Assembly (NCBI GenBank): GCA_029547045.1
Contig: JAKPQL010000032.1
Span: forward strand, 1 to 64,000
Direction: 5' to 3'
Source of the DNA: Deltaproteobacteria bacterium
GTDB lineage: Bacteria; Desulfobacterota; Desulfomonilia; UBA1062
Length of the DNA stretch: 64,000 nt
Part shown: piece by piece, positions 62,090 through 64,000 of the stretch
How the letters are laid out: every line of letters starts with the position of its first letter
Position numbering within the stretch: the stretch's first letter is position 1
The notes under the pieces: model-generated
The model's input: only the letters and a program-made list of their open reading frames with translations
The model's database searches: none
Told to the model about the DNA's origin: nothing
Translations under genes and position numbers: made by a program

Positions 62090-62596
62090 TCAGATCTTCC
62101 GGCTGTCATAGGCCCAGTTCAACAGGGCCTGCCGCTGGCGGGGCCTGCAGGAAAGGTCGCACTGGATGCAGTGCTTCCTGATCTGGGCGATGTGCCGCTT
62201 CATGGCCTTCCATCGTGAGATCTGGCGATCGTCGTCCGGGCAGCGCCTGCCCATGTAGTACCTGCAGTACCACTGGAACCAGCCCCGGGGGTCCTCGTGG
62301 TAGATCCAGCCCTTGGCGCGCCAGACCGAAAGAGGCTGCGATGCGTTGACGTTGAAGAGGTTCAGCTTCGGGTCGTGACGTTCGTGGCAGAGCTTTGCAC
62401 GGGCGAACCAGTCCTCGGGGAACTCGTTTCGGCAGTCGGTCATGTATTTGCCGCCGAACACGCCCAGCTCGAGCATCTGCTTCGGGGTGAGCTTGGGGGT
62501 GAATTCCGGGTGGAAGTGTTCTCCCATGGGCTCGGTGAGGACATAGGTGTAGTTCTGCTGCATGAGGTCGTTTACGGTTATGGTGCGGTGCTTCAT
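62090..62596 (-). CDS. Conserved hypothetical protein
   Basis: Full-length ORF MKHRTITVNDLMQQNYTYVLTEPMGEHFHPEFTPKLTPKQMLELGVFGGKYMTDCRNEFP...DPRGWFQWYCRYYMGRRCPDDDRQISRWKAMKRHIAQI...CRPRQRQALLNWAYDSRKI. Confidence 0.85.
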   Translation of the reverse strand: MKHRTITVNDLMQQNYTYVLTEPMGEHFHPEFTPKLTPKQMLELGVFGGKYMTDCRNEFPEDWFARAKLCHERHDPKLNLFNVNASQPLSVWRAKGWIYHEDPRGWFQWYCRYYMGRRCPDDDRQISRWKAMKRHIAQIRKHCIQCDLSCRPRQRQALLNWAYDSRKI

Positions 62597-62810
62597 AACC
62601 CGGCCCTCCCAGGCCCGATGGAAGACTCAGCCGCGCCCGGGCCTGACGCGCCGCCGGTACCACCGTTTTTCCAGCAATGAGCAGCGTGGATGACTGGAGC
62701 GCCTGCGAGGCGCGCCGTATCATGGACGCAGCCGATGGCACTGCGCACGTTCTGCTTCTTCCATAAAACGCAGTTTAATGCTGCGGCTACGGCCCTTCAT
62801 TACCCTTTCC

Positions 62811-62824: not shown

Positions 62825-62848
62825 ATTCAACATGACGAACAGTAGCCT

Positions 62849-62880
62849 TACTGTCCAAAACTATCACGTTTTGAACAGTA
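62849..62880. repeat. 13-bp inverted repeat (one mismatch), 6-nt loop
   Basis: TACTGTCCAAAAC-TATCAC-GTTTTGAACAGTA; the half-site GAACAGTA also occurs at 62837-62844. Confidence 0.8.
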
Positions 62881-62924: not shown

Positions 62925-63316
62925 TTGCTTTACTAATTCAACTCGGCGGTTCTTGTGTACGTACTGTCTGGCCATTTCGGATCGTTCTCAAAAGCGGTTC
63001 CACCTATTTTTTGGATAGCGTTCATATAGTTACGGGAGATTTGAAGCCTGGAATACTGATCTCCGATATCTTTCTTCATACCATAATCGATGACATATCG
63101 ATGACCCTCCACCGTTACCTTGCTTTTTGTTTCGGGATCTCTGAAATCTTCGGCATCAAATGCCTTTTCTTCACATCGCGCAATATAGAACCCTTCCATC
63201 CTGGAAAAAAGTGGATGGTCTTTGCACCCCTTCTTATCCTCTTGGGCAAAGGTGACAGTGCTGAGGGTAAGAATGCAGACTACGATCCAACAGATGAATG
63301 TTTTGCAATTTTTCAT
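62925..63316 (-). pseudogene. OmpA-family exported protein relic with internal deletion/frameshift
   Basis: Signal peptide and N-terminal domain (DHPLFSRMEGFYIARCEEKAFDAEDF...RLQISRNYMNAIQKIGG) intact. The OmpA C-terminus KNRRVELVKQ* is found in another frame immediately at the ORF end (minus-strand ...ACAAGAACCGCCGAGTTGAATTAGTAAAGCAATAA). Confidence 0.7.
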
Positions 63317-63340
63317 GATCGATACGTCCTTATAATTATC

Positions 63341-63398
63341 GGCTAACGTGCTGCTCAGCCGCTGGCGAGGCCAGTCGGCTGAAGTGGCTTATTCGAAC
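63341..63398 (-). other. attC-like recombination site (integron cassette), site 2
   Basis: Minus strand: ...AAGCCACTTCAGCCGACTGGCCTCGCCAGCGGCTGAGCAGCACGTTAGCC. Nested inverted repeat CAGCCG-(A)-CTGGC-CTC-GCCAG-CGGCTG with one unpaired base; ends at a GTTAGCC core-like box. Confidence 0.75.
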
Positions 63399-63863
63399 TT
63401 ATTTCTGCAAGCCTTTCATTACACCTGTGAGAATTTCTTTAAACCACTTCTTTTCCTGGGTTGCCGTAAAAAGTATTCGTTCCCAAACCGATATAGGTTC
63501 GGTTATTGATGTCTGGCCTCCCCAAATTAGGCGCCCTTGGGGACTTAAGAAATAGTAGCTGATACGAAGCCAATCAGGCTCATTGTCCCCTTCAAACCTA
63601 ATTAGGTCTACAACATCCCAGTAAGGGTAATTTTCTATGACTACACGGTCTTTCAAGATACCTTTTTTCTCAGCCGGTGCTTTGAAACTTACAACCTCTC
63701 CAACACGTGATTTAATCCATTCAACAACAGGGATTTCCCATCTATGTTGGCAGTTTCGCTTACTGCACTCTAACTTGCGCATATACTCCCCTGATTCAGC
63801 TTTATGAACCAGTCCTGATTTTGGAGACCTCATCTGACATTCTGGACATTGGATTCTGCTCAT
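63399..63863 (-). CDS. Hypothetical zinc-ribbon protein, putative gene-cassette ORF
   Basis: MSRIQCPECQMRSPKSGLVHKAESGEYMRKLECSKRNCQHRWEIPVV; bounded on both sides by attC-like sites. Confidence 0.85.
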   Translation of the reverse strand: MSRIQCPECQMRSPKSGLVHKAESGEYMRKLECSKRNCQHRWEIPVVEWIKSRVGEVVSFKAPAEKKGILKDRVVIENYPYWDVVDLIRFEGDNEPDWLRISYYFLSPQGRLIWGGQTSITEPISVWERILFTATQEKKWFKEILTGVMKGLQK

Positions 63864-63885
63864 TGTGCCTCTAAATATTTTATAG

Positions 63886-63948
63886 GCCGAACGTGCTCAT
63901 CAGCGGCGCGGGCGGCAGCCCGCGTCCGTCTGGATGGGCTGGTTGGGC
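63886..63948 (-). other. attC-like recombination site (integron cassette), site 1
   Basis: Minus strand: GCCCAAC-CAGCCCATCCAGACGGA-CGCGGGC-TGCC-GCCCGCG-CCGCTGATGAGCAC-GTTCGGC. Perfect RYYYAAC box, near-consensus GTTRRRY box, central 7-bp hairpin, and unpaired bases in the flanking arm. Confidence 0.82.
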
Positions 63949-64000
63949 TATGGTGCTCATACATTTCGAACTTAAAAATCACTAAGAAAGCCACATTTTC

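Follow-up and report, generated by a model that had tools for sequence, protein, structure and literature searches.

The described systems closest to the locus analyzed here are sedentary chromosomal integrons (PMC2426708, PMC9024848), which it resembles in attC structure, in its attI leader, in having a low-G+C array within a G+C-rich chromosome, in same-strand cassettes that mostly lack a known function, and in an integron integrase gene (intI) transcribed away from the array. It differs from them in that few cassettes were recovered, that these are split over contigs, and that the array on one contig lies behind an insertion sequence (IS)-like end. In IntegronFinder usage, a cluster of attC sites lacking an integrase is a CALIN, as distinct from a complete integron, and fragmentation into contigs is known to give rise to spurious CALINs (PMC9024848). 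Contig C77, which has four attC sites and no intI, would by itself be given this name. However, an attI leader is retained in its array, and an intI stands beside an identical leader elsewhere in the genome. There is also a likeness to the unusual delta-attI-type cassettes of mobile integrons (PMC12901181), in that extra attI copies occur outside the usual place, whereas here a full 109-bp leader lies by an IS-like end and no short attI piece replaces attC.

The window, meaning the whole 64,000-nt stretch of DNA that was analyzed, corresponds to C77:1-64000 in an assembly of 2.97 Mb and 148 contigs with a contamination of 3.8%. Its right end is almost certainly the distal terminus of a sedentary chromosomal integron array, an ordinary gene-capture array of known type. 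The initial annotation had proposed as much from the sequence of the window, and attC sites, cassettes, and an intI in the same genome bear the proposal out. The features within the window are as follows:

62090-62596, minus strand: first flanking chromosomal gene, 168 aa, with a 75% relative in a same-genus genome
62800-62924, no strand: boundary between the low-G+C array and the 65% G+C chromosome, from the G+C profile
62925-63316, minus strand: OmpA-family gene remnant, recovered by tblastn with a 317-aa relative; includes the 127-aa ORF (62933-63316) of the initial annotation
63341-63397, minus strand: attC site a4, distal-most; stem L''/L' CAGCCG-A-CTGGC/GCCAG-CGGCTG, R' GTTAGCC
63347-63891, minus strand: 545-bp gene cassette bounded by a G|TT junction on either side, G+C 42-45% vs 65% in the flank
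63399-63863, minus strand: cassette ORF, 154 aa, with a putative N-terminal zinc ribbon (CxxC...CxxxxC)
63886-63948, minus strand: attC site a3; R'' GCCCAAC, R' GTTCGGC, 13-bp interrupted stem
63892-64000, minus strand: distal part of the next cassette, which runs on to C77:64954

C77 extends to position 67008, and beyond the window it carries three further minus-strand ORFs of ~320, 209, and 348 aa. The remaining features lie on this part of C77 and on contig C51:

C77:64949-65005: attC site, from covariance-model scans
C77:65634-65690: attC site, from covariance-model scans
C77:66762-66870: attI leader, 109 bp identical to the C51 leader
C51:12549-13532, minus strand: intI, 327 aa, 459 bits against TIGR02249
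C51:13575-13683: attI leader, beside intI
C51:14237-14302: attC site, from covariance-model scans
C51:14821-14877: attC site, from covariance-model scans

In total there are four attC sites on C77 and two on C51. In the C77 array, every cassette is a single ORF on the minus strand with an attC site after it. The expectation that intI and attI would lie to the right of the window held for attI, since two attC sites and the leader occupy C77:64949-66870 in the predicted orientation, but intI is on C51 and not on this contig. The initial annotation had also named grounds for giving up its reading, namely a lack of further attC sites and of intI and poor covariance-model scores for the two window sites; further attC sites and an intI exist, and both sites score. 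Three points stand against this reading: intI and the array are on separate contigs, the site at 63341-63397 has no matching R'', and the last ORF has no attC.

A first consensus pattern for attC sites lacked stringency, with 139 genome-wide matches vs 28 for the reversed pattern. A strict one, which demanded AAC/GTT boxes and tolerated no more than one bulge in the stem, failed to find either window site, owing to two bulges in one and an apparently decayed R'' in the other; covariance models were used instead. Model R1 was built from three attC sites of the same genome, all outside the window, and was limited to these equal-length sites because a MAFFT alignment that included every site placed the longer C51 site incorrectly. 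Model R2 was built from 24 attC sites near integron integrases of other organisms and included no site of this genome. Its structure of 21 pairs had a covariation score of 0.371 vs 0.114 when shuffled, although the former is biased upward because the alignment was fitted to the structure (slid controls gave 0.03-0.06), and two-sided changes were seen in 15 of the 21 pairs. Both models were run without filters over the whole 64-kb window, and both ranked the same two minus-strand sites highest, where the initial annotation had placed them. With R1, 63886-63948 came first (30.9 bits, E 7.8e-7) and 63341-63397 second (19.4 bits, E 0.0046), followed by a third-best match of 12.5 bits (E 0.85). With R2 the corresponding values were 44.5 bits (E 1.2e-8) and 30.4 bits (E 4.6e-5), and the third-best match had 10.6 bits (E 5.4). 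Searches against Rfam gave nothing but sub-threshold chance matches here. Elsewhere in the genome, a lone attC-like site was seen outside the window after a 346-aa ORF (C21:46684-46741, L132 2185-2242; R2 33.7 bits, E 3e-4). Its R' region, GCATTATAT, has no GTT, and the site may therefore be a decayed or a captured single one.

While the two positions were right, the descriptions of the sites had been exchanged in the initial annotation. The GCCCAAC...GTTCGGC boxes with the 7-bp central hairpin belong to 63886-63948, and AGCCGAC-TGGC-CTC-GCCA-GCGGCT with GTTAGCC belongs to 63341-63397. The stop codon of the zinc-ribbon ORF had likewise been said to abut the former site; it lies at 63399-63401 and abuts the latter. 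Site a3 has its G|TT crossover at 63892/63891 and belongs to the cassette with the ~320-aa ORF (C77:63982-64944), which is mostly outside the window. In a4 the R'' is degenerate (TTCGAAT), and without a good R'' box this site appears to be partly decayed. At least two attC sites that have extra-helical bases and the R''/L''/L'/R' organization are expected of an integron, and these are present. The bottom strand of a3 folds at -23.4 vs -19.4 kcal/mol for the top strand, and in six of six attC sites the bottom strand folds as well as or better than the top; known attC sites as a rule recombine through the bottom strand (PMC2727003).

When a cassette is circular, its R'' pairs with the G|TTNNNN with which the inserted cassette will begin. 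In five of the six cassettes, including that of a3, all seven positions of R'' are complementary to the G|TTNNNN at the cassette's own start. When the same five R'' boxes were compared with the R' next in the array, 7, 4, 6, 5, and 6 of 7 positions matched, and in the single case of complete agreement the cassette's own start and the following R' are identical. The sixth, the zinc-ribbon cassette with the site at 63341-63397, matched its own start at 4 of 7 positions. The complete matches are, at the level of sequence, evidence that these units moved as cassettes. Taking a cassette as one ORF and one attC site in the same orientation with an R'' complementary to its own start, five of six thus agree at 7/7.

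The integrase of this genome exceeds the NCBIfam cut-off for TIGR02249 (265 bits) and is the only one in the assembly to do so. It aligns over nearly its full length with the IntI4 structure 2a3v (E 2e-95), through the integron-specific insertion, and, with the motifs GSGLR, HTFRHS, LLGHR, and VYTH in addition to that insertion, intI is intact, with its catalytic motifs present. As is expected of an integron, attI lies near intI, and intI and the C51 array are divergent. We infer recombination by IntI in this genome as for integrons in general: the C51 integrase would bind the folded bottom strand of attC, cut R' at G|TT (AAC/GTT), excise cassettes as circles, and reinsert them at attI, and the newest cassettes would be those closest to attI. 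An intI above the cut-off was present in 19 of the 60 genomes searched, this one included, and was absent from all four genomes of the same genus that were searched; the closest IntI relatives are from MAGs labelled Deltaproteobacteria. The locus adds one more chromosomal integron for an uncultured lineage, in whose family many genomes, not all, have integron integrases.

At the distal end, the G+C content rises from ~40% to 65% around position 62800, while within the array it ranges from 33 to 50%. The initial annotation had described each of the two attC-like sites as lying between same-strand ORFs. The attC sites do lie between such ORFs, but the last ORF (62933-63316) is a deletion remnant with no attC after it. 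This 127-aa ORF matches residues 1-123 of OmpA-like proteins that are 280-317 aa long, whose C-terminal ten residues, KNRRVELVKQ, are encoded at 62925-62954 in a different frame, and tblastn with the 317-aa OmpA-like relative recovers both pieces. Because both termini are encoded at the same place in different frames, 62925-63316 is an OmpA-family gene with an internal deletion, in which codons 1-123 are fused to the final 10 in another frame. An intact gene cassette would have an attC after its ORF, and the covariance-model scans found none downstream of the 127-aa ORF; nor was an attC found near relatives of the OmpA remnant. Just beyond the remnant, 62848-62879 holds a 12-bp inverted repeat with one mismatch, ACTGTCCAAAAC-TATCAC-GTTTTGAACAGT, perhaps its old terminator. 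Considering the apparent decay of R'' at 63341-63397 and the deletion remnant together with the IS-like end upstream of attI, the C77 array probably has an old distal end and may have been separated from intI.

The attI leaders bear on the latter point. The leaders of C77 and C51 are identical over 109 bp and then part, at the G|TT crossover, into different first cassettes; the common segment ends in GTTA, with one base beyond the crossover agreeing by chance. This identity speaks for a recent common origin, and identical leaders with different first cassettes may offer a snapshot of cassette turnover or of an IS separating an array. Upstream of the C77 leader is a repeat that the contig ends C77:66868-67008 and C49:1-141 have in common along exactly 141 bases. 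As similar repeats (75-86% alike) occur mostly at contig ends in same-family relatives, we take it to be the end of an insertion sequence. The transposase and body of the IS were not recovered, since most copies in the relatives are at contig ends and the exception, L180, has no transposase within reach. C77 thus stops, a short way upstream of attI, within an IS-like end, and the linkage of intI to an array is seen on C51.

Why there are two leaders can be read in several ways. We give an even chance to the two contigs being strain alleles of one integron locus, binned together from a mixed population, with intI-attI-array Y in one strain and IS-attI-array X in the other. The 109-bp leaders are identical, cassettes adjoining attI are expected to turn over fastest, and the presence of just one intI in a fragmented assembly of 148 contigs with 3.8% contamination agrees with such alleles. 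An IS between intI and attI should, however, branch the assembly graph on the intI side, and C51 is unbroken from intI to attI, which weighs mildly against them. Tentatively, one chromosome could instead hold two arrays, a complete integron on C51 and, on C77, an array with its own attI behind an IS, which IntI could serve only in trans. C51 is continuous from intI to its array and C77 from the IS end through attI to its array, and both could assemble in one genome since a repeat of 109 bp falls below the 141-base word length deduced from the contig overlap, although the assembly method is itself deduced solely from C77 and C49 overlapping by exactly 141 bp, and the sequence of C77 stops at the IS end. 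The flanks of C51 and C77 were sought as neighbors in integron-free relatives; counterparts of both were present within the genus, but the contigs carrying them do not connect the two. It is unlikely, in our estimation, that the organism has two attI platforms with different arrays and a single intI, the second platform being isolated by the IS and fed by IntI in trans; if true, it would keep one active and one archived array. Finally, that the two window sites are chance hairpins, REP-like elements, or intergenic terminators is extremely improbable and we consider it refuted: short intergenic palindromes are common and 63341-63397 lacks a paired R'' box, but these sites lead the R2 scan with the next match in 64 kb at E 5.4, four more such sites lie between same-strand ORFs of the same genome, which also has intI and attI, and R'' follows the cassette-junction rule.

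The cassettes of this integron supply proteins without assigned function, as is usual for such arrays. For the 154-aa zinc-ribbon protein the only Pfam match was weak and sub-threshold (zf-DNA_Pol, E 0.012), and a search of 396 genomes from the phylum gave no relative. No known function was found for the cassette proteins apart from two sub-threshold matches, one of the 209-aa protein (C77:65000-65629, L038 5001-5630) to HEPN (E 0.001) and one of a 175-aa protein (L039 14299-14826) to a PD-(D/E)XK nuclease (E 5e-5). Judged from these similarities, the HEPN-like and PD-(D/E)XK-like cassette proteins are possibly defence-related.
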